Assembly (NCBI RefSeq): GCF_028993575.1
Contig: NZ_CP118615.1
Location: forward strand, 5,485,001 to 5,549,000
Source of the DNA: Micromonospora cathayae
GTDB lineage: Bacteria > Actinomycetota > Actinomycetes > Mycobacteriales > Micromonosporaceae
Length of the DNA stretch: 64,000 nt
Direction: 5' to 3'
Each line of letters starts with the position of its first letter. Position 1 is the stretch's first letter. A program made the translations under genes and the position numbers. Shown piece after piece: positions 41,774 through 55,444 of this stretch. Under the pieces are notes generated by a model that did no database searches, had not been told where the DNA came from, and was given only the letters and a program-made list of their open reading frames with translations.

Positions 41774-42787
41774 TCAGTCCGCCTGACCGGCGGCCGGTGG
41801 TGTCGCCATCTTGTGGTTCTGTCCCGGCACCTGGAAGTGGTGGAACGTGACGGTGGCGCTGACGTCCAACGCCGCCACCCAGTGCCACCAGCCGACCGGG
41901 ACGAGCAGCATCTGGCCCGGTTCCAGGACGGTCTCCAGCACGGTCGCCTCAGCGAAGCGCGGGTGCCGGGCGAGGTCCGGCTCGGCCGCGTCGACCGCGC
42001 TGAACGTGCCGCCGCGCGGGTAGACCAGGTGCCGCTCGTACGACGGGACGAGCCGCACGTGCTTGCGCCCGAACACCTGGCACAGCAGCACCGAACTGTT
42101 GTCCACGTGCAGGGGCGTCACCGTACCGGCCGGCCCGAGCAGCAGGTGCCCGAGCGCCGACGGGTCGACGATCCCGGCCGGCGGTCGGACGTCGGCGGCG
42201 AGCGGCCGGAGCGGACCGGACCAGTTCTCGTTGCGCGGCACCATGTAGTAGTCGTTGGTGCGGGCGCCGGAGCCGAGCAGCGCCAGGTAGTCGCGGAACG
42301 GCATGGTGGTGCGGTGCCGGTCGTACTGCCAGGCGTGGTCGGGGTTGGTGTCCCGGCCGGTCATCACCTCGACCTCGGCGTCGCCGCACCGCCGCGCCAG
42401 CGTGTCCAGGGTCCAGTCCAGTGCGGGCCAGTCCGCCATCAGGCCGTCCAGCACGACCGGACGGTGGCCGAAGTAGTACCGGCTGAAGAACTCGTCGGCC
42501 GTGACGCCCGTCCGGTGTTCCAGGGTGCGGCCCCCGTCGCTGTTGCGCAGCGCCCGGTACGTGTCCAGGACGGACTCCATCCAGTCGTACCGCAACGCCA
42601 GCCGACGGCACACCGCGAAGTACGGGTGCGCGGTGAGTTCCCGGAGTTCCGCGTCGACGGCGTCCGGGTCGCCGCACCCGGCGACGGCGGCGGCCCGCAC
42701 CTGGTCGACCGGGGCGCCCATGGCGAGGTTCTCCACCAGCCACTCCCGCCAGTCGGCGGCGAGCCGGGACAGGGTGGGCACGGTCAT
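41774..42787 (-). CDS. JmjC/cupin-8 Fe(II)/2-oxoglutarate hydroxylase
   Basis: 337 residues. An N-terminal helical part (about 1-100) precedes a JmjC-type double-stranded beta-helix (about 105-325). The iron facial triad is His227-x-Asp229 and His302. Lys242 (FGRKHVRLV) is placed to bind 2-oxoglutarate. The family hydroxylates protein or peptide side chains (Asn, Asp, His, Arg, Lys). ATG 42787 overlaps the stop of the repeat-peptide gene as ATGA, so the two are translationally coupled. The natural inference is that the repeat peptide is its substrate. The in-frame extension up to 43102 only reads antisense-frame through the peptide gene and was rejected. Confidence 0.9.
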   Translation of the reverse strand: MTVPTLSRLAADWREWLVENLAMGAPVDQVRAAAVAGCGDPDAVDAELRELTAHPYFAVCRRLALRYDWMESVLDTYRALRNSDGGRTLEHRTGVTADEFFSRYYFGHRPVVLDGLMADWPALDWTLDTLARRCGDAEVEVMTGRDTNPDHAWQYDRHRTTMPFRDYLALLGSGARTNDYYMVPRNENWSGPLRPLAADVRPPAGIVDPSALGHLLLGPAGTVTPLHVDNSSVLLCQVFGRKHVRLVPSYERHLVYPRGGTFSAVDAAEPDLARHPRFAEATVLETVLEPGQMLLVPVGWWHWVAALDVSATVTFHHFQVPGQNHKMATPPAAGQAD

Positions 42788-43068
42788 GCGCCGGTGCCCG
42801 GGACGACGGTGAGCCGGGCCGCGCGGGCGTAGTGCTCGCAGTTGACGTAGGAGCCCTTGACGTGCGTCGGGAAGTGCTCGGCCGCCGGCGGCGGACTGAG
42901 CCGGGCGGTGCGGGCGTACTCCTGGCAGTTGACGTAGGAGTTCTTGACGTGCGCCGGGAAGTGGTCGGCCGCCGGCGGCGGGCCGAGCCGGGCGGCGCGG
43001 ACGGACTCGCCGCAGGTGGGGTAGGAGTTCTTCACGTGCGCCGGGATGTGGTCCGGGGAAGAGGTCAT
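42784..43068 (-). CDS. Three-repeat peptide, candidate RiPP precursor
   Basis: 94 residues from ATG 43068 (a TTG at 43080 is the alternative; no strong ribosome site is visible). After five residues the protein is three tandem 29-residue repeats at 6-34, 35-63 and 64-92. Each begins Asp/Glu-His-Phe/Ile-Pro, then HVKxSYxxC, then R(A/T)ARL. The first two end PPPAA; the last ends VVPGTGA. Each repeat has one Cys (19, 48, 77), two His and one or two Tyr. There is no signal peptide, lipobox or known domain. The coupled JmjC hydroxylase makes a multi-core modified peptide plausible. Alternatively it could be a small repeat protein hydroxylated for regulation. I do not recognise the family. Confidence 0.8.
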   Translation of the reverse strand: MTSSPDHIPAHVKNSYPTCGESVRAARLGPPPAADHFPAHVKNSYVNCQEYARTARLSPPPAAEHFPTHVKGSYVNCEHYARAARLTVVPGTGA

Positions 43069-43088
43069 GGCCGCAGTCAACCGGCCGG

Positions 43089-43134
43089 GGTGTCCCGGTC
43101 ACCAGTGACCGGTGTCCCGCCCGGGACGGGACAC
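43089..43134. promoter_or_regulatory. Palindrome-rich divergent control region
   Basis: A perfect palindrome CCGGTCAC-CA-GTGACCGG spans 43095-43112. An adjacent inverted repeat pairs GTGTCCCG (43112-43119) with CGGGACAC (43127-43134). GGTGTCCCG is also directly repeated at 43089 and 43111. The region lies between the repeat-peptide/JmjC operon (start 43068) and the sensor kinase gene (start 43216). It could be the operator of the response regulator; part could instead act as an RNA hairpin. Confidence 0.6.
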
Positions 43135-43215: not shown

Positions 43216-45153
43216 ATGCCGACCTCCCCCACCGCCGGCCGGATCGCCGCCCGGCTGGTCCTCGCCGTCACCGCCGTGTTCACCACCGCCGCCGTCGCCG
43301 CCTGGTGTGTCGCCCTGCCGGCGTTCACCGTCACCCAGCTGTACTCGCTGGTGGACCTGATGGACGGGATCGTCTACGGCGGCGTCGCGTGGCTCGTGCT
43401 GGGCCGGCGACGCACCGGTGGGCGGCTCGCCGGGTGGATCACCGCCGCCGCCGCGGTGGGTGGCTCGGTGTCCGCCTTCGCCGCCCAGTGGGGGCTGCTG
43501 TCCACCGGGCCGTACTGGTTGCTGTCCGCCCACCACTGGGCCTGGATCCCCGGCCTGTACGCGCTGGTCGTGGTGATGCCGTGGCTGCTGCCCGAACGCC
43601 GGCCCCGGCCGGTCGAGCGGATCGCGGTCGCGGTCGGGCTCGGCTACGTGGCGCTGGCCTGGGTGGCGGTGCTCACCGCGCCCGCGCCACGCGGGCTGGT
43701 CCCGCTGGGGCCCGCGGCGGTGGAGTTGCGCGCCGGGCTGGTCCGCCCCCTGCCGTACCTGCTGGTGCTGCTCGGCCTGGCCGCCGCGGTCGGGGCCGGT
43801 TGGCGCTGGCGGCGCGGCCCCCGGGACGGTCGGCACGGCATGGGCTGGGCGACCGCCGGCAGTGCGCTGCTCACCCTGGCGTTCCTCACCACCATGCTGC
43901 CGCCGTTGCTGCCCGCCACCGTGCCCGCCCTGCTGATGCTGGCCTCGCAGGCGTTCTTCCCGGCGGCCGTCGCGGTCGTCGTGCTGCGCCAGCAGATGTG
44001 GGGACTGCGGCTGGTGGTCCGGCGCACGCTGGTGTGGTACCTGATGACGGCCGGGGTGATCGCCGCCTACAGCGCCGCGGTCACCGTGCTGGACCGGCTG
44101 CTGCCCGACTCGTCGTCCGCGCCCCGGATCGTGGTCACCGCGGCCATCGCGGCCGCCTTCCAGCCGGTACGGCAGGCGGTGCAGCGGGCCGTGGACCGGC
44201 TCGTGCACGGCGACAGCCCGGAACCGTTGATGCGCCGGGTCGCCGACAGCCTGCGCAGTTCAGCCGAGATCGGCCCGGCCGTCGCCGCCGCGCTCCGCCT
44301 GGCCGGCGTCACGGTCACCGATGGTCCCGGGCCGCCGCCCGACGCCGGGGGCCGGTCGGTGACCGTACCGTTGACCAGCGGGGACCGTACCGTCGGCTAT
44401 CTGCACGCCTGGCCGCGGCCCGGTGAGCTGCTCGGCAGCCGGGCCACCGGGGCGCTCACCGAACTCGCCCCGGTGGTCGCCGCCGTGGTGGACCTGGCCC
44501 GCACCAACGAGGAGTTGACCCGGTCCCGGCGACGCCTCGCCGAGGCCCGGGACGAGGAACGACGGGCGCTGCGCCGGGACCTGCACGACGGGCTCGGCCC
44601 CGCGTTGAGCGGCATCGGGCTCGGTCTCGCCGCCACCCGCAACCTGCTGCACCGGGACCCGGCCCGCGCGGACGAACTGCTGGACCGGCTGATCGCCGAA
44701 CTCACCACCCGCGCCGACGACGTCCGGGACCTGGCGCACGGGCTGCTGCCGCCGATCCTCGCCGACGGCGGCCTGGAGCCGGCGGTGGACACCCTGCGGC
44801 ACCGGTTCGCCCGGGACGGCCTGGCGGTGACCGTCCACGTCCCGGTGCCGCTCGAACCGCTGCCCGGCTCGGTCGCCACCGCCGCGTACGGGGTGGCCGC
44901 CGAGGCGGTCCGCAACGTGCACCGGCACGCCGGGGTGCGGCACTGCACGGTACGGCTGGACCGGCTGCCGCACCTGCTGCGGATCAGCGTCACCGACCAC
45001 GGTCGGGGTCTGCCGGCCGCCGGGCCGGCCCCGGGTGTCGGCCTGCACGCGATGCGGGAACGGGCCGACGGCGTGGGCGGCACGCTGACCGTCGGGCCGG
45101 CCGAACCCCGGGGCACCACGGTGTGCCTGAGCATCCCGCTGGAGGCGGCGTGA
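43216..45153 (+). CDS. Membrane sensor histidine kinase (NarL-type partner)
   Basis: 645 residues. About eight hydrophobic helices fill residues 10-300. A linker/GAF-like part (about 330-430) precedes HisKA_3 with the phospho-acceptor His in RRDLHDGLG near 457. The ATPase domain has N-box AAEAVRNVHRHAG and G-box DHGRGLP ... GVGLHAMRER. The many-helix sensor suggests detection of a membrane-associated or amphipathic ligand. It is divergent from the repeat peptide and overlaps its response regulator as GTGA. Confidence 0.92.
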   Translation: MPTSPTAGRIAARLVLAVTAVFTTAAVAAWCVALPAFTVTQLYSLVDLMDGIVYGGVAWLVLGRRRTGGRLAGWITAAAAVGGSVSAFAAQWGLLSTGPYWLLSAHHWAWIPGLYALVVVMPWLLPERRPRPVERIAVAVGLGYVALAWVAVLTAPAPRGLVPLGPAAVELRAGLVRPLPYLLVLLGLAAAVGAGWRWRRGPRDGRHGMGWATAGSALLTLAFLTTMLPPLLPATVPALLMLASQAFFPAAVAVVVLRQQMWGLRLVVRRTLVWYLMTAGVIAAYSAAVTVLDRLLPDSSSAPRIVVTAAIAAAFQPVRQAVQRAVDRLVHGDSPEPLMRRVADSLRSSAEIGPAVAAALRLAGVTVTDGPGPPPDAGGRSVTVPLTSGDRTVGYLHAWPRPGELLGSRATGALTELAPVVAAVVDLARTNEELTRSRRRLAEARDEERRALRRDLHDGLGPALSGIGLGLAATRNLLHRDPARADELLDRLIAELTTRADDVRDLAHGLLPPILADGGLEPAVDTLRHRFARDGLAVTVHVPVPLEPLPGSVATAAYGVAAEAVRNVHRHAGVRHCTVRLDRLPHLLRISVTDHGRGLPAAGPAPGVGLHAMRERADGVGGTLTVGPAEPRGTTVCLSIPLEAA

Positions 45154-45806
45154 CCGGACCGATCACGGTCGTCGTGGTGGACGACCATCCGGTGTTCCGG
45201 CTCGGGATGGTCGCCCTGCTGTCCACGCTCGACGGCATCGAGTGTGTGGGCGAGGCGGCCGACGTACCGGCCGCGCTGGACACGGTGGCCCGGACCCGGC
45301 CGGCGGTGGTGCTGATGGACCTGCACTTCGAGCGGGGGTCGGGCATCGAGGCCACCCGGCTGCTCACCCGCGACCGGCCGGGGATCGGTGTCCTGGTCGT
45401 GACGATGCTCGACGACGACGCGTCGCTGGTCGCGGCGATGCGCGCCGGGGCGCGCGGCTACCTGCTCAAGGGGGCCACCGCGGCCGACGTGGAGCGCAGC
45501 ATCCGCGCGGTGGCCAGTGGTGACCTGGTGCTCGGTGCCGCGGTCGCCGGCCGCGCCGGGCTGCTGTTCCGCGCCGGGCCCGCCGGGCGGGTACCGTTCC
45601 CGCAGCTCACCGACCGGGAACGGGAGATTCTCGAGCTGCTCGCCCGGGGGCTGCCCAACGCGGGCATCGCGCACCGGCTCGGTCTCAGTCCGAAGACGGT
45701 CCGCAACAACGTCTCCACCATCCTGCTGAAACTGGGCGTGGGCAGCCGATCGGAGGCGATCGCCGCCGCCCGGGACGCGGGGTTCGGGGCCGCCACCGCA
45801 GGCTGA
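45150..45806 (+). CDS. NarL/FixJ-family response regulator
   Basis: 218 residues from GTG 45150, overlapping the kinase stop. The receiver domain (about 5-120) has the acidic pair in VDDHP, the phospho-acceptor Asp56 in LMDLHF and Lys in LLKGA. The LuxR-type helix-turn-helix (about 150-212) reads LTDREREILELLARGLPN ... LGLSPKTVRNNVS. It probably controls the divergent peptide operon through the palindromes at 43089-43134. Confidence 0.94.
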   Translation: MTGPITVVVVDDHPVFRLGMVALLSTLDGIECVGEAADVPAALDTVARTRPAVVLMDLHFERGSGIEATRLLTRDRPGIGVLVVTMLDDDASLVAAMRAGARGYLLKGATAADVERSIRAVASGDLVLGAAVAGRAGLLFRAGPAGRVPFPQLTDREREILELLARGLPNAGIAHRLGLSPKTVRNNVSTILLKLGVGSRSEAIAAARDAGFGAATAG

Positions 45807-46780: not shown

Positions 46781-48166
46781 TCAGCCGGCCAGGGCCGCCT
46801 CGACCAGTCGTGCCTCGACGTCGCGCAGCAGCCGCTCCGCCCGCTGCGGCGGCAGGTAGACGCTGTCGACGGTGACCACCAGTTCCACCGCGCCGGGCGC
46901 GTCGACCACCTGGATCCGGCACCGCCAGGCGAACCGTTCCAGCTCCTCCAGCCAACGGAACGGGCTGGCGTCCCGGGCCGCCCGCAGGGTGGCCGCGTCC
47001 GGGGCGGTGACCCCGGCCGGTACCTCCTGGGGCAGCCGGATGTCGTTGAAGAAACAGAACGGCGCGAGCGCGGTGCCGTAGTCGATGCCGTGCCCGGCGA
47101 AGGCCGCCGCCATGGCGAGCGGGTCGTAGTAGGCGTGCCGGTACCCGTCCAGTGACGCCTGCTTGGTCCGGGTGAGCAGGTCGGCGAAGTCCGGCCGACC
47201 GGTCAGGTCGATCCGGCACAGTCCGAGCTGGTTCAGTTTGCTGATCGCGGTGTCGTACTCGGGCTGGAACCGGTTGTTGCCCATGGTGAAGATGCCCCGG
47301 GCGTCCGCCCCGTCGCCGGGGAGCACGTCGGCGACGGCGGCCAGCAGCACGGTGGCGTTGCTGACCCGGTACCGGGCGGCGAGCAGCCGGGCCGCGTGGT
47401 AGGCCGCCGTCGAGGTCAGTGCGCCCCGGCGGTACCGGGGGGTCGTCCCGGCCCCGGCCACGTGGAAGGTGCCGACCGGCAGGGCCCGGAACTGGCGCAG
47501 CCAGTACGCCACCGCCCGGTCCGACCGGCGTCGCTCGACCTGCCGTTCCCGCTCCGCCACGTCCAGCGACTGCAGGCCCGGCGGGTGGGGTGCGGTGCCC
47601 CGGACCAGCAGCATCCGCAGGTCCCGCAGCACGGTCTCGGTGGCGTGGAAGTCGACGGTGGAGTGACTGAAGACCACCACCACCTGCCGGACCAGACCGT
47701 CGACCACCACGACGGCGGCCCGCAGCGGCCACTCGGTGGCGTGGTCGAACCGCGGGTCACCCAGCCGTACGGCGAGCGACCGGGCCGCCTCCTGCCCGAC
47801 CGGGTCCGCCCCGGCCGTGGGCACGGTGTGCACCAGCACCGGCAACCGGCCCTCGGCGGCGGCCTCCTGACGCAGCTCACCGCCGGCCGGACGGACCCGG
47901 GTCCGCAGTGACTCGTGCCGGTCGACCAGTGCGGCGAGCGCCCGCACCGCCCGCTGCGGCGACACGTCCGCCCGGGGCGAGACGGCCAGGACACGGCGCA
48001 GGTTCAGGAAGCTGTGCTGGGCGGACTCGAACTCGGTCACCGCCCGCCACATGGCCCGTTGGCCCCAGGTGAGCGGTCCGGTGGCGACCCGGCCGCCGTG
48101 GAAGTCCGCGTACGCCAGTTCCTCGGTCGACGCGGCGACCTGGTTCATGAACGGGGAAGTGAGCAC
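46781..48166 (-). CDS. Stand-alone condensation-like acyltransferase 1
   Basis: A 461-residue protein with the two-lobed chloramphenicol-acetyltransferase/condensation fold. The active-site motif is SHSTVD near 190, keeping the second His and the Asp of HHxxxDG but with Ser for the first His. Other family landmarks are TWGQRAMWRAV near the N-terminus and MGNNRFQPEYDT near 310. The start is GTG 48166 or ATG 48148; no clear ribosome site. It forms a tandem pair with the homologous gene 21 bp upstream, divergent from the NRPS. It may form an ester or amide bond in trans on a carrier-bound intermediate. Confidence 0.8.
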   Translation of the reverse strand: MLTSPFMNQVAASTEELAYADFHGGRVATGPLTWGQRAMWRAVTEFESAQHSFLNLRRVLAVSPRADVSPQRAVRALAALVDRHESLRTRVRPAGGELRQEAAAEGRLPVLVHTVPTAGADPVGQEAARSLAVRLGDPRFDHATEWPLRAAVVVVDGLVRQVVVVFSHSTVDFHATETVLRDLRMLLVRGTAPHPPGLQSLDVAERERQVERRRSDRAVAYWLRQFRALPVGTFHVAGAGTTPRYRRGALTSTAAYHAARLLAARYRVSNATVLLAAVADVLPGDGADARGIFTMGNNRFQPEYDTAISKLNQLGLCRIDLTGRPDFADLLTRTKQASLDGYRHAYYDPLAMAAAFAGHGIDYGTALAPFCFFNDIRLPQEVPAGVTAPDAATLRAARDASPFRWLEELERFAWRCRIQVVDAPGAVELVVTVDSVYLPPQRAERLLRDVEARLVEAALAG

Positions 48167-49762: not shown

Positions 49763-52700
49763 GTGACCAATGTAGACCTTCCGGCCCGGGCTGTCCGTCC
49801 CGTCACGAGCGGGATTTCCGGCCCGGCCGGGGCGGGACCGGTGCTGTCGTTCGGGCAGGAACGGATCTGGTTCACCGAACAGCTCACCCCCGGCACGGCC
49901 GGGTACCTCGTCTACGCGACGCTGCGGCTGACCGGCCCGCTCGACCCGGGCCTGCTCGCCACCGCCATCGACGCCACCGTCGGTCGGCACGACAGCCTGC
50001 GGATGCGGTTCACCGAGAACGACCTCGGCGAGCCGGTGGTCGAGGTGGTGCCCGCGGTGCAGGTGCCGGTCACCGTCACCGGCGTCACCGACGAGGCGCA
50101 GGCCCGCGCCCTGGTGGCCGAGTCGGCGTCCACCCCGTTCGACCTGGCCGCCGCTCCCCTGCTCCGCGCGCTGGTGATCAGGCTGGGGGCCGACGACCAC
50201 GTCCTGCACCTGGCGATGCACCACATCATCAGCGACGGCTGGTCGCTGGACCTGCTGCTCACCGAGATCGCCACGATCTACGGCGCGTTGCGTGACGCCG
50301 GCCCGGTGCCGGCCCCGCCGACGCTGTCGTACCTCGACTACGCCGCCTGGCAGCGGGAGCGGGTGGACGGTCCGGGGGCCGGCGCGGAGCTGACCTGGTG
50401 GACCGAGGCGCTGGCCGGGGTGCCCGCGCTGGAACTGCCCACCGACCGGCCCCGCCCGGCCGTGCAGACGTACGCCGGGGCCACCCACCGGTTCCGGATC
50501 GACGCCGAGCTGACCGACGGGCTGCGGCGGCTGGCCCGCAGTCACCGGGCCACCCTGTACATGACGCTGCTGTCCGGGTTGCAGGCGCTGCTGTTCCGGC
50601 ACAGCGGGCAGCGGGACTTCGCCATCGGTTCCCCGGTCGCCGGGCGGGTGGTGCCCGAGCTGGAGAACCTGATCGGCCTGTTCGTCAACACGCTCGCCCT
50701 GCGCGCCGACCTGTCGACCACCGGCGGCACCGCCGACTCCCCGGGTGCGGAGCCCAGCTTCGGGATGCTGCTGCGGCGGAACCGGACGACCGTGGTGAAG
50801 GCGCTGGCCCGGCAGGAGATCCCGTTCGAGCGGCTGGTCAAAGAGCTGAACGTGACCCGGGACGTGAGCCGCTCCCCGGTGTTCCAGGTGCTGTTCACGC
50901 TCCAGAACTACGCCCGTACCGGGGGCGGCCGGTGGCCGGACGGGCTGCGCACCGAGGGCTTCGGCGCGGACGGCAACGCCGCCCGGTTCGACCTGTCGCT
51001 CTACCTGAGCGAGGTCGGCGACGGGTTGCGCGGCATGTTCGTCTACAACACCGACCTGTTCGACGCGGACACGGTGGCCCGGCTGACCGACCGGTTCAGC
51101 ACGCTGCTGCGGGCGGCGGTGGCCGACCCGGACCGGCCGATCGTGGACCTGGACCTGCTCGCCGACGGGGAACGGGACCGGGTGCTGGCGTTCAGCGCGC
51201 CGGACGAGCCGGTCGGGCCGGTCAGCGCGGCGTCGGAGGTCGCTGCGGTGACCGGCCCGGCCACCACCCTGGCGGAGCTGCTCGTTCCGCACGTGGCGGC
51301 CACCCCGGACGCGCCGGCCGTGGTGTGCGGCGCGGACACCCTGACCTACCGGGAGCTGGACCGGCGGGCCAACCGGCTGGCGCACTGGCTGCGTACCGTC
51401 GGGGTCGGCCCGGACGCGCTGGTCGGGGTGCTGCTGGACCAGTCGGTGGAGTTGGCCGTGGCGCTGCTCGGGGTGCTGCGCGCCGGTGGGGCGTACCTGC
51501 CACTGGACCCGGAGCAGCCGCCGAACCGGTTGGCGACCATGCTCGCCGACGCCCGCCCGGCGGTGGTGCTGACCAGCAGCGACCTGCGGGACCGGCTCAC
51601 CCCGACCGATCCGACGATCGTGGTCCCGGTGACCCCCACCTGTCTGGACACGATCACCGCCGAGGTGGCCGCCCAGCCGGACACCGTCCCGCCGTCCGGC
51701 ACCCGACCGGACAACCTGGCGTACGTGATCTACACGTCCGGTTCGACCGGCGTCCCGAAGGGGGTGGCGGTGCCGCACCGGCAGGTGCTGCGCTACCTCG
51801 ACGGGGTGGCCGCCCGGTTCGACGTCGTGCCCGCCGGCCGGTACGCGCTGCTCCAGTCGATGTCGTTCGACTTCAGCGTGACCATCTTCTACCTGGCGTT
51901 GGCCACCGGCGGGGTGGTGCACCTGCTGCCCCGCCGGGGCACCGGGGCCGAGCTGGCCGAACAGCTCCGCACCCACCGGATCGACTATCTGAAGATCACC
52001 CCGTCGCACCTGGCCGCGTTGACCGCCGACGCCGAGCCGGCCGAGCTGCTGCCGGCCCGCGCCCTGATCCTCGGCGGTGAGGCGTCCGACCTGGAGCGGA
52101 TCCGACCGCTCGCGGCCGTCGGGGCGACCCGGGTGTTCAACCACTACGGGCCGACCGAGGCGACCGTCGGCATCGCCACGTACGAGGTGACCGCCGACGC
52201 CGCCGGGACAGGTCCGGTGCCGACCGGCCGGCCGCTGCCGTACGCCCGGGTGCACGTGCTCGACGAGCGGATGCGGCCGGTGCCGGTGGGCGTACCCGGG
52301 GAGATCTACCTGGGCGGGGACCGGCTGGCCCGGGGCTACCTGGACCGGCCCGCGCTGACCGCCGAGCGGTTCGTGCCCGACCCGTACGGCCCGCCCGGCG
52401 CGCGCCTCTACCGCACCGGTGACCTGGGGCGGTGGCGGGCCGACGGGCAGCTGGTGTTCCTCGGCCGGGCCGACCACCAGGTCAAGATCCGGGGGTACCG
52501 GGTCGAGCTGGGCGAGGTGGAGGCGGCGCTGCGCGACTGCCCGCCGGTGCACCAGGCGGTGGTGGTGCTGCGCGACGACCGGCTGGTCGCCTACCTGGAG
52601 TCCACGCCCGGGGCGGACCGGCCGGAGTCGGCGGCGCTGCGGCGCGTCCTCGGCGACCGGCTGCCCGACCACATGGTCCCGCAGCGGTTCGTCTGGCTGG

Positions 52701-55444
52701 ACCAGCTGCCGTTGCAGCAGCACGGCAAGGTGGACCGCAGGGCGCTGCCGGAACCCACCGCCGAGACGCCGACCGGGGAACGGCTCGCCCCGGTCGGCCC
52801 GGTGGAGACCCTGATCGCCGGGATCTGGCAGGAGGTGCTGGGCCTGCCGGAGGTCGGCGTCACCGACGACTTCTTCGACATCGGCGGGCACTCGCTGCTG
52901 GCCACGCAGGTGGTGGCCCGGATGCGCCGGGAGTTGCCGGCCGACGCCGACGGCAACCCGCCCCGGGTCAGCGTGATGGACCTGTTCCGGCACCGGACGG
53001 TCCGTGAGCTGGCCGAACGGGTCGGCACGACCGACACCGGGCCGGCCCTCCTGCTGCACGAGCTGACCCCGCCGGTGCCGGCCGCCGAGCGGGTCGCCAC
53101 CCTGGTCTGCGTCCCGTACGGCGGTGGCAGCGCGGTGGTGTACCAACCCCTTGCCGACGCGCTGCCGGCCGGGTACCGGCTGTTCTCGGTCTCCATGCCC
53201 GGCCACGACATCGGGCTGGCCGACGACCCGGCCCCGATCGACGAGGTCGCCGGGGACGTGGTCGCGGAGATCCTGACCCGGGTGGACGGTCCGCTGGTGC
53301 TGTACGGGCACTGCGGTCCGGGTGGGGCGCTCGCGGTGGAGGTGGCCCGGCGGCTGGAGGCGGCCGGCCGGGAGCTGGCGGCGGTGTACCTGGGCGCGGT
53401 GTTCCCGTTCGCCCGGCCGGTGGGCGGGGTGCTCGGGCCGCTGATGCGGCTGCGGCTGGCCGAGCGGATCCGCAGCGACCGGATCTACCGCACCTGGTTG
53501 CAGGCGCAGGGCACCTCGATCGGCGCGCTCGACCCGGACGAGGTGGCGTTCCTGATCCGGGCCATGCGGCACGACGCCCGGGTCTCCGAGGAGTACTTCA
53601 CCGACCTGATGCAGCAGCAGGTGACGCCGCTGCGGGCACCGATCGTGTCGGTGGTCGGCGACCGGGACCGGGGCACCGAGTACTTCGAGGAGCGGTTCCG
53701 GGAGTGGCACTTCCTCAGCGACCGGACCGCCCTGGCGGTGGTCGACGAGGGCGGGCACTACTTCCTCAAGTACCGGGCCGAGGAGCTGGCCGAGATCGTC
53801 ACCACCGTGCACCACCGGCTGGCCGAGCCGGCCGGGGTGGTGGGCACGGTCGGCGCGGACGGCCCCGATCCGGCCTGGGTGCTGGCCGCCGTCTCGGACC
53901 GCGGCCCCGAGCCGCCCGCGCCGGTCACGGCCCCGGCCGTGCCGCCGGACCGGCCGGCCCGCCGGCCCCGCACCGGCACCGACCGCACCCCGCAGCCGAG
54001 CATGGCCCGGTTCGGTCTGGTCGCGGCCGGTCAGATCGTCTCCAGTACGGGCACCGCGCTGACCAACTTCGCGATCCCGCTGTGGATCTACCTGGAGACC
54101 GGGTCGCTGGCCCGGTTCGCCCTGTTCGCGGTGATCGGGCTGCTGCCCGGACTGCTGGTGGCCCCGCTCGCCGGGGCGCTGATCGACCGGACCAGCCGCC
54201 GCCGGGTGCTGCTGCTGGCCGGCCTGGCCGCCGGAGCGGCCAACGCGGCGTTGGCCGGGCTGGTGCTCACCGACCGGATCGAGGTCTGGCACTTCTACGT
54301 GCTGGTGGGCTGGCTGTCGGTGGCGTTGGCGTTCCAACGGTTGTCGTTCATGTCGGCGGTGCCGCAGCTGGTGCCGAAACGGTTCCTCGGGCACGCCAAC
54401 GGGCTGACCCAGACCGCCACCGGCATCACCCAGTTCATGGTGCCGCTGATCGCGGTGGCGCTGCTGGACGCGGTCGGCCTGGCCGGCATCCTGGTCCTCG
54501 ACGTGGTGTCGTACGTGTTCGCGATCGGGGTGCTGCTGGCCATCCGGTTCCCGCGCACGCTGGCCCTGCAACGCCGGGAGGGCATCGGCGAGGAGATCAT
54601 GGGCGGGCTGCGGTACTCGGTACGCCGCCGCGAGTTCCGGTCCATGCTGATCTTCTTCGCCGCGCTGAACCTGTTCCTGTTCCCGGTGCTCTACCTGCTC
54701 TCCCCGCTGGTGCTCGGCTTCGCGGAGCTGGCCCAGGTGGCGCAGATCGCGCTGACCGGTGGGCTGGGGGCCGCCGCCGGTGGGCTGGTGATGCTGGTCT
54801 GGGGCGGCCCGCGCCGGTACCGGATGCGGGCGGTGCTGCTGGGCACCCTGGGCATCGCGGTGGCCTGCCTGGTCACCGGCCTCCGCCCGAACCTGGTGGT
54901 GATCGGGGCCGGCGCGTTCGGCATGTACCTTGCGCTCGGCATCGTCAACGGCGTCTACAACACGATCATCCAGACCAAGGTGCCGCCCCGGTTCCACGGT
55001 CGGGTGTTCGCGCTGAACCAGATGGTGGCCTGGTCGACCATGCCGCTGGGCTGGGGGGTGATCGCCCCGTTCGCCTCGCAGGCGTTGGAGCCGCTGCTGA
55101 TGCCGGGCGGGGCGCTGGCCGGCACCGTCGGCGCGGTGATCGGGGTCGGCCCGGGTCGCGGCATCGCCCTGCTGTACGTGGTGTTCGGCGGGTGCATCGC
55201 GCTGACCGCGCTGGTGTCGCTGCGGACCCGGGTGCTGTCCCGGTTCGACGACGAGGTGCCCGACGCCCCGCCGGACGACCTGATCGGCATCGAGGCCCGG
55301 CAGGCCCGCGCCGCAGCGACCGGGGCATCCGGAGCGACCGGGGTATCCGGAGGGTCGACCGGGGTGGCGGTCGACGCGACGTCCGGGGTGGCGGGCGGCA
55401 CGACGGCGAGCGCGCCGGCCGAACCGGCCGGGAAGGCGGCCTGA
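49763..55444 (+). CDS. NRPS (C-A-PCP-TE) fused to an MFS exporter
   Basis: 1,893 residues. C domain (about 25-460; HHIISDG at 153), A domain (about 500-990), PCP (GGHSLL near 1041), thioesterase (about 1110-1375) and, after a Pro-rich linker, a complete 12-helix MFS domain (about 1414-1840) with a Gly/Ala/Thr-rich tail. The A pocket read against GrsA is D-F-T-K-I-G-H-V-G-K, closest to aspartate-type codes. The TE elbow reads GHCGPGG with Cys1184 as the nucleophile in place of Ser. There is no stop or frameshift between TE and MFS. It presumably adds the last residue, releases the peptide and exports it. GTG 49763; first gene of the plus operon. Confidence 0.93.
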   Translation: MTNVDLPARAVRPVTSGISGPAGAGPVLSFGQERIWFTEQLTPGTAGYLVYATLRLTGPLDPGLLATAIDATVGRHDSLRMRFTENDLGEPVVEVVPAVQVPVTVTGVTDEAQARALVAESASTPFDLAAAPLLRALVIRLGADDHVLHLAMHHIISDGWSLDLLLTEIATIYGALRDAGPVPAPPTLSYLDYAAWQRERVDGPGAGAELTWWTEALAGVPALELPTDRPRPAVQTYAGATHRFRIDAELTDGLRRLARSHRATLYMTLLSGLQALLFRHSGQRDFAIGSPVAGRVVPELENLIGLFVNTLALRADLSTTGGTADSPGAEPSFGMLLRRNRTTVVKALARQEIPFERLVKELNVTRDVSRSPVFQVLFTLQNYARTGGGRWPDGLRTEGFGADGNAARFDLSLYLSEVGDGLRGMFVYNTDLFDADTVARLTDRFSTLLRAAVADPDRPIVDLDLLADGERDRVLAFSAPDEPVGPVSAASEVAAVTGPATTLAELLVPHVAATPDAPAVVCGADTLTYRELDRRANRLAHWLRTVGVGPDALVGVLLDQSVELAVALLGVLRAGGAYLPLDPEQPPNRLATMLADARPAVVLTSSDLRDRLTPTDPTIVVPVTPTCLDTITAEVAAQPDTVPPSGTRPDNLAYVIYTSGSTGVPKGVAVPHRQVLRYLDGVAARFDVVPAGRYALLQSMSFDFSVTIFYLALATGGVVHLLPRRGTGAELAEQLRTHRIDYLKITPSHLAALTADAEPAELLPARALILGGEASDLERIRPLAAVGATRVFNHYGPTEATVGIATYEVTADAAGTGPVPTGRPLPYARVHVLDERMRPVPVGVPGEIYLGGDRLARGYLDRPALTAERFVPDPYGPPGARLYRTGDLGRWRADGQLVFLGRADHQVKIRGYRVELGEVEAALRDCPPVHQAVVVLRDDRLVAYLESTPGADRPESAALRRVLGDRLPDHMVPQRFVWLDQLPLQQHGKVDRRALPEPTAETPTGERLAPVGPVETLIAGIWQEVLGLPEVGVTDDFFDIGGHSLLATQVVARMRRELPADADGNPPRVSVMDLFRHRTVRELAERVGTTDTGPALLLHELTPPVPAAERVATLVCVPYGGGSAVVYQPLADALPAGYRLFSVSMPGHDIGLADDPAPIDEVAGDVVAEILTRVDGPLVLYGHCGPGGALAVEVARRLEAAGRELAAVYLGAVFPFARPVGGVLGPLMRLRLAERIRSDRIYRTWLQAQGTSIGALDPDEVAFLIRAMRHDARVSEEYFTDLMQQQVTPLRAPIVSVVGDRDRGTEYFEERFREWHFLSDRTALAVVDEGGHYFLKYRAEELAEIVTTVHHRLAEPAGVVGTVGADGPDPAWVLAAVSDRGPEPPAPVTAPAVPPDRPARRPRTGTDRTPQPSMARFGLVAAGQIVSSTGTALTNFAIPLWIYLETGSLARFALFAVIGLLPGLLVAPLAGALIDRTSRRRVLLLAGLAAGAANAALAGLVLTDRIEVWHFYVLVGWLSVALAFQRLSFMSAVPQLVPKRFLGHANGLTQTATGITQFMVPLIAVALLDAVGLAGILVLDVVSYVFAIGVLLAIRFPRTLALQRREGIGEEIMGGLRYSVRRREFRSMLIFFAALNLFLFPVLYLLSPLVLGFAELAQVAQIALTGGLGAAAGGLVMLVWGGPRRYRMRAVLLGTLGIAVACLVTGLRPNLVVIGAGAFGMYLALGIVNGVYNTIIQTKVPPRFHGRVFALNQMVAWSTMPLGWGVIAPFASQALEPLLMPGGALAGTVGAVIGVGPGRGIALLYVVFGGCIALTALVSLRTRVLSRFDDEVPDAPPDDLIGIEARQARAAATGASGATGVSGGSTGVAVDATSGVAGGTTASAPAEPAGKAA

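Follow-up and report, generated by a model that had tools for sequence, protein, structure and literature searches.

A gene coding for a small peptide made of three repeats and the gene of a JmjC-type oxygenase that starts within its stop codon form, in Micromonospora cathayae, a genuine pair of peptide and enzyme. The pair is conserved in two phyla and stands as a strong candidate for a new RiPP-like family of two genes. The explanation that we favour, and that we hold to be probable, is that the JmjC protein would oxygenate one residue in each V-[KR]-x-x-Y-x-x-C unit of the peptide, the whole being probably placed under a signalling regulator. In the RiPP systems with a JmjC enzyme that appear in the accessible text of PMC12257519 and PMC12707348, the JmjC protein is an accessory, one of several tailoring enzymes. 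Were our reading correct, a JmjC protein and a repeat peptide would make up the whole recurring module, in two phyla, and form a simple peptide-oxidizing system of two genes; they would also constitute a natural enzyme-substrate pair with a target motif that can be read from 104 repeats. The motif, together with the operator described below, would then provide handles for the genome mining of products that are probably missed by tools built on known maturases. In what follows, the window is the whole stretch of DNA that was analysed, 64,000 nucleotides of contig NZ_CP118615.1.

The gene pair in the window

The peptide gene lies at 42784..43068 on the minus strand and, read from its ATG, encodes a precursor-like product of 94 residues, with homologues in Micromonosporaceae and Myxococcota. 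As the preliminary description had it, this product is built of three repeats of 29 residues, which comparison of the repeats places, all on the minus strand, at 42967..43053 (repeat 1, residues 6-34), 42880..42966 (repeat 2, residues 35-63) and 42793..42879 (repeat 3, residues 64-92); 21 of the 29 positions are identical between the first two, 18 between the second and the third and 14 between the first and the third. This architecture is not a matter of chance, since the peptide laid over itself yields at best 39 identities, against 19 at most in 20,000 shuffles. Each repeat contains a single cysteine, again as first described, within a core box that follows the consensus of the family: H-V-K-N-S-Y-P-T-C at 43012..43038, H-V-K-N-S-Y-V-N-C at 42925..42951 and H-V-K-G-S-Y-V-N-C at 42838..42864 (minus strand). 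The PPPAA stretch that had been placed between the repeats does follow repeats 1 and 2, and only these, repeat 3 ending in TVVPGT.

The second gene (41774..42787, minus strand) encodes a JmjC/Cupin_8 protein of 337 residues (Pfam PF13621, 2.4e-34). Its ATG and the TGA of the peptide gene share the four bases ATGA at 42784..42787 (minus strand), an overlap that had been noticed at the outset, that is visible in the translations and that recurs in 23 of the 25 Micromonosporaceae loci scanned (offset -4); one of the two others has an offset of +10 and the other no start recognized by the script. Because the start of the JmjC gene overlaps the stop codon of the peptide gene, which comes first, the two are probably translated together.

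A family of short peptides

A profile built from 17 single-core peptides was searched against 5.8 billion proteins, 64 of which matched at an E-value of 0.01 or better. The matches with a named source belong to Micromonosporaceae and Myxococcota, and the annotations seen on them were 'hypothetical' or 'uncharacterized', with one 'Lipoprotein'. Pfam, NCBIfam and PADLOC contain no match for the peptide; the literature searched, which left most subscription papers aside, yielded no description of a V-[KR]-x-x-Y-x-x-C peptide family and no occurrence of five core motif strings.

Eighty unique peptides were brought together, of which the searches, with the window, supplied 71, the rest being read from loci. 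One copy of the core is present in 64 of them, two copies in eight and three in another eight, for a total of 104 cores. Valine, tyrosine and cysteine are found in 104 of the 104, and lysine in 103 (replaced once by arginine), an invariance that is inflated by the use of the motif itself as the counting rule, yet no peptide was left unmatched by it. The residue after the lysine is N, G, S or T, and the next one S, N, T or A. In every one of the 80 peptides there are as many cysteines as cores, and none outside them. In 70 of the 71 database peptides, among them all 63 with a single core, the core is followed by P-x-P; as the single-core peptides have nothing to space, P-x-P belongs to the conserved unit, and the earlier view of PPPAA as a mere spacer meant for protease cutting is not supported. 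Between 11 and 26 residues precede the valine of the first core in the 71 peptides, where a crude test detected no TM-like stretch. The ratio dN/dS is below 1 in all 17 pairs of peptide genes tested (range 0.06-0.91), mostly between 0.4 and 0.9 with one pair at 0.06: by this measure the peptide genes are coding, and loosely constrained outside the core.

The JmjC enzyme

The HxD...H triad, the 2OG lysine and tyrosine and the DSBH fold are all present in the JmjC protein. The iron triad H227/D229/H302, reported as intact from the window alone, is also well preserved among its relatives: in alignment A3, which has 63 rows including that of the window, both histidines are kept in 63 and the aspartate in 62. 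NCBIfam and PADLOC gave no match for this protein; in view of the lack of PADLOC and family-library matches for the peptide or the JmjC protein, a role in defence is without support.

The structure model (pLDDT 92.9) displays a fold like that of JMJD5, JMJD7 and FIH, JMJD5 being the best relative in the PDB. Sequence identity to JMJD7, a lysyl hydroxylase, and to FIH, an asparaginyl hydroxylase, is 22-25%. Comparison with JMJD5, an arginyl C-3 hydroxylase, brings out clear differences: among 38 close rows the equivalent of E238 is Met142 in all 38, that of Y243, at position 148, is Asn in 32 and Asp in 6, and the pocket residue W310 is replaced by Leu, while the protein has in addition an N-terminal region modelled as all helical (helices 11-22, 27-38, 41-53 and 55-83, with no strand before residue 90). 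Since the arginine-binding E238 and Y243 are replaced, the precedent of JMJD5 gives no clue to the residue that would be modified. The positions of the enzyme that correspond to pocket residues in JMJD5, or that lie next to ligands, set the close clade apart from more distant relatives. Three distant JmjC relatives (P0126, P0128 and P0132) also carry PF09037, and in two of them the source name is LPS sulfotransferase NodH.

Conservation of the pair within Micromonosporaceae

The JmjC protein is present, at an E-value of 1e-20 or better, in 18 of 300 genomes of the family, which amounts to 19 loci as one genome has two, and at all 19 a peptide lies directly upstream of the JmjC gene, recognized by the strict motif in 16 cases and by reading frames in three (HVRSNYVEC twice, NVKNNYVDC once). 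When the genus Micromonospora is considered, the enzyme is found in 17 of 160 genomes and the core DNA motif in 16, with none for the reversed-pattern control; all 16 are among the 17 that possess the enzyme (Fisher 4e-21, kinship being ignored), and in the 17th, G324, a variant NVKNNYIDC lies upstream of the JmjC gene. Six further loci of the genus gave six peptides upstream, so that 25 of 25 Micromonosporaceae loci examined have a peptide with one to three cores, counting two (G009 and G036) where the JmjC gene is split over two reading frames.

The DNA pattern overlooks some genuine peptides because of the residues or codons they use, as happened with G324 and with the myxobacterial genome G748. 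Spread over the phylum, a narrower pattern matched 10 of 396 genomes and its reversed form 7; the matches outside the genome of the window were set aside as chance, their letters being unlike those of the peptide family and the reversed control similar. JmjC relatives at 1e-40 or better were found in one of 345 genomes of the class, that of the window itself, in a sample that is poor in Micromonosporaceae.

Conservation of the pair in myxobacteria

A scan of GTDB contigs for JmjC relatives gave 21 loci, 12 actinobacterial and 9 myxobacterial. At one of the latter (L055, in genome G748; 62% identity), an HVKNSYPTC peptide lies on the opposite strand just ahead of the enzyme gene. Seven myxobacterial paralogues with 42-45% identity showed no peptide motif within stretches of 7-13 kb; they were left out of the count of pairs, as was L051, where the contig stops at the JmjC gene. 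The motif pattern was then applied to eight of the nine myxobacterial genomes, that of L061 being the one outside, and matched in four, the reversed control giving one match in each of the eight; there was no match in G749, G751 and G752. These four matches are counted only because all of them adjoin an additional JmjC gene, which is more closely related (about 58% identity) and divergently oriented. They sit in small ORFs that resemble the L055 peptide or the HVKNNYVDC form. The peptide is thus divergent from the enzyme in five of five inspected myxobacterial close relatives (58-62% identity). Elsewhere, in Corallococcus (L057 and L060), the 42-45% paralogue appears from the sequence to stand in tandem with one or two JmjC-like ORFs behind a porin-like ORF, the peptide being absent, an arrangement that we read as a separate JmjC system.

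The association of peptide and enzyme thus persists in another phylum and under another gene order; within the data seen, it is confined to the close enzyme clade. The search for repeat peptides beside homologous JmjC genes had been conducted as an attempt at refutation; with 25 of 25 loci in Micromonosporaceae and five of five among the inspected myxobacterial close relatives, the putative substrate peptide with its JmjC enzyme comes out of it well supported by genomics.

Promoter element, stand-alone peptides and a possible regulon

Upstream of the peptide gene lies a promoter element with GTCCC/GGGAC dyads (43092..43134, minus strand), which was seen by eye before 19 of the 19 Micromonospora peptides compared and then searched in genomes, and a TTGACT box placed right ahead of the start codon (43075..43080, minus strand) is seen in the same 19 sequences. 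The layout, with small departures, is GTCCCGG-n-CCGGGAC, GTCCCTGGTG-n-CCGGGAC, TTGACT and the start codon. Three of the 19 are stand-alone peptides with a single core, found one each in G335, G253 and G345, genomes that also have the pair; no JmjC gene lies near them within stretches of 16 kb. One of these peptides (L068, ~7513, plus strand) is located, as read from the sequence, in a cluster of genes that are aminotransferase-like, AMP-ligase-like (two of them), PPTase-like and thioesterase-like. At L070 and L071, the Micromonospora loci where the peptide is of the NVKNNY type and which stood outside the 19-sequence comparison, there is no TTGACT in the 25 upstream bases and no operator site by pattern.

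The operator pattern was searched in 27 genomes, all 17 JmjC-positive ones of the genus and 10 of the 143 others; 15 of them contained a total of 23 sites, against 2 for the control. These 15 are 14 of the 17, with none by pattern in G324, G330 and G265, and one of the 10, G107. Seventeen sites precede peptides, three a divergent gene for a secreted protein, one a kinase gene (in G183, where the peptide sits on a different contig from the kinase) and two a lipoprotein-like gene, one of these last being in G107, which is without a JmjC protein of this family at 1e-20. The dyad operator is not exclusive to peptide genes, and its sharing among peptide, secreted-protein, kinase and lipoprotein-like genes suggests one small regulon. 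The secreted-looking protein, of about 1048 residues, is encoded at L030-L033 with the pair on one side and the kinase genes on the other, and has the operator in three genomes, and the one that was scanned had no Pfam match.

Neighbouring genes

The divergent neighbour of the pair in the window (43216..45153, plus strand) encodes a histidine kinase (HisKA_3, HATPase_c) with an N-terminal half that reads as hydrophobic, a candidate sensor of the system; it is followed by the gene of its partner, a LuxR-type response regulator (Response_reg, GerE) with an ORF running from a GTG at 45123 to 45806 on the plus strand (scanned from 45153). Kinase and response regulator are present in 10 of 25 pair neighbourhoods. 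Kinase orthologues with at least 65% identity occur in 10 of 160 genomes of the genus, all JmjC-positive (that of G335 is in two pieces), in a search that scored seven candidates per genome, so that absences mean little; G308, which is without JmjC, has a split kinase match at 58 and 66% identity. We infer that this kinase and response regulator are the favoured candidates for the regulator of the peptide-JmjC system.

Among the clustered ORFs of 19 neighbourhoods, called by a simple GC3 rule that may miss genes, with some of the clusters named, what recurs is the kinase and response regulator, the synteny of the genus and a BTAD-type activator in 4 of 19 (Pfam on one); neither a protease nor a transporter nor another modifying enzyme was seen to recur there, and no recurring protease or transporter was seen in gene calls near the myxobacterial pairs. 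Two candidates for further core parts, both downstream of JmjC, were discarded as too rare at 2 of 19 loci each: an FAD-dependent oxidoreductase-like gene, read from sequence, and a ferredoxin-reductase/P450-like pair, the reductase identified by Pfam and the P450 from sequence. In myxobacteria, genes for an ECF sigma factor, a zf-HC2 anti-sigma factor and a CHAT-TPR protein adjoin the pair at five of five loci (gene calls, Pfam on the L079 proteins and tblastn in the five). Regulators are frequent neighbours of the pair, but they are of differing kinds between clades.

Comparison with known systems

In the biphenomycin pathway, as described in the accessible parts of PMC12257519 and PMC12707348, the JmjC/cupin 2OG enzymes BipG, BpmG and PbsQ hydroxylate ornithine in a precursor peptide with an FRF core, alongside an MNIO, an arginase, a B12-radical SAM enzyme and a TldD protease. 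The likeness to the present pair would reside in the association of a JmjC/cupin enzyme with a ribosomal precursor, and pbsQ likewise overlaps its neighbour gene (same sources). The difference is that the JmjC protein is here the sole recurring enzyme seen at pair loci. None of 71 peptides has an FRF or FHAF core, and the single MNIO match in the genome of the window lies about 750 kb from the pair. The available portion of an RRE survey (PMC12710340) reports RRE-fused JmjC proteins, with bacterial JmjC relatives of these in RiPP-like contexts, and gives the order of the RRE as three strands followed by three helices. The enzyme of the window differs from these fused proteins in that its model has no RRE and no strand-rich N-terminus, an RRE being not required of all RiPPs. 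A ribosomal precursor encoded with an enzyme and carrying a conserved core, as in RiPPs, is what was found at 25 of 25 and five of five loci, with 104 cores, the modification itself remaining a prediction.

Proposed mechanism and alternatives

In each repeat the oxygenase would bind V-[KR]-x-x-Y-x-x-C and oxidize a single residue, using Fe(II), 2-oxoglutarate and O2, peptides with one, two or three units ending up with one, two or three modified sites; the stand-alone peptides located elsewhere in the genome would be modified in trans. Which residue is concerned can be proposed tentatively: the almost invariant lysine, ahead of the invariant tyrosine and cysteine, may be the one, a choice to which we give somewhat less than an even chance. 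In Micromonospora a two-component signal probably turns the genes on, because the operator of most peptide genes also precedes histidine kinase genes in one genome. Two fates of the product are compatible with this: it may act as a signal or an antimicrobial after trimming by housekeeping proteases, or it may stay inside the cell as a switch that depends on oxygen. Several findings weigh against the proposed mechanism: the replaced arginine-binding residues, the lack of a recurring protease or transporter gene nearby and of an RRE in the model, the weak constraint outside the core, the stand-alone peptides with no JmjC gene in the 16 kb around them, the kinase pair seen in only 10 of 25 neighbourhoods, and the operator, which the pattern did not find in three JmjC-positive genomes of the genus and which stands once in a genome lacking the enzyme. 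A bolder version, improbable in our estimate, would make these peptides a new RiPP-like class: a single stand-alone JmjC protein would act on this core in actinomycetes and myxobacteria, possibly beyond plain hydroxylation (for example by an oxidative Tyr-Cys link), and a two-component or sigma-factor circuit would have the modified peptide of one to three units as its output.

The idea of a switch inside the cell can be taken further, in analogy with FIH and HIF. A small protein hydroxylated within the cell would then bind a regulator differently, so that oxygen or 2-oxoglutarate is sensed and no product is secreted; this reading shares the enzyme-substrate step with the explanation that we prefer and differs in the role of the product. 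We see this as rather unlikely. The regulators that often adjoin the pair (kinase and response regulator at 10/25, BTAD-type cluster at 4/19, ECF sigma/zf-HC2/CHAT-TPR at 5/5 myxobacterial loci) speak for it, as does the lack of a recurring exporter or protease and of TM-like stretches in the 71 peptides; these regulators are of different families in each clade, however, as expected of simple transcriptional control, and one of the three stand-alone peptides lies among biosynthesis genes that look NRPS-type. It has also to be considered that the peptide might be a partner of the JmjC protein (subunit, inhibitor or chaperone) or its regulator, the true substrate being elsewhere. Overlapping genes and strict co-occurrence would suit a subunit just as well, but a copy number of the unit that goes from one to three, a gene order that varies by phylum and stand-alone copies away from the enzyme are substrate-like features, unusual for subunits, and we deem this quite improbable. 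Finally, Esi of Sorangium is a cupin-like repressor that, according to the accessible text of PMC5442856, binds an inverted GGGA repeat; given the TCCC/GGGA dyads of the operator, the cupin protein could be conceived as mainly a DNA-binding repressor of its own promoter, modulated by the peptide. This idea is scarcely credible when it is confronted with the conserved catalytic triad and 2OG residues, with the operator found before a lipoprotein-like gene in G107, a genome JmjC-negative for this family at 1e-20, and with the all-helical N-terminus of the model, as the N-terminal domain of Esi is described there as made of beta sheets and helices (a comparison by description, not by sequence).

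Other genes in the window

Farther from the pair, an ORF of 1893 residues (49763-55444, plus strand) carries condensation, adenylation, carrier and thioesterase domains and, fused to them at the C-terminus, an MFS transporter; such an NRPS-transporter fusion looks unusual. Beside this NRPS gene, two adjacent stand-alone proteins encoded on the minus strand (46781-48166 and 48188 to ~49600) have weak matches to condensation domains (~1e-10).
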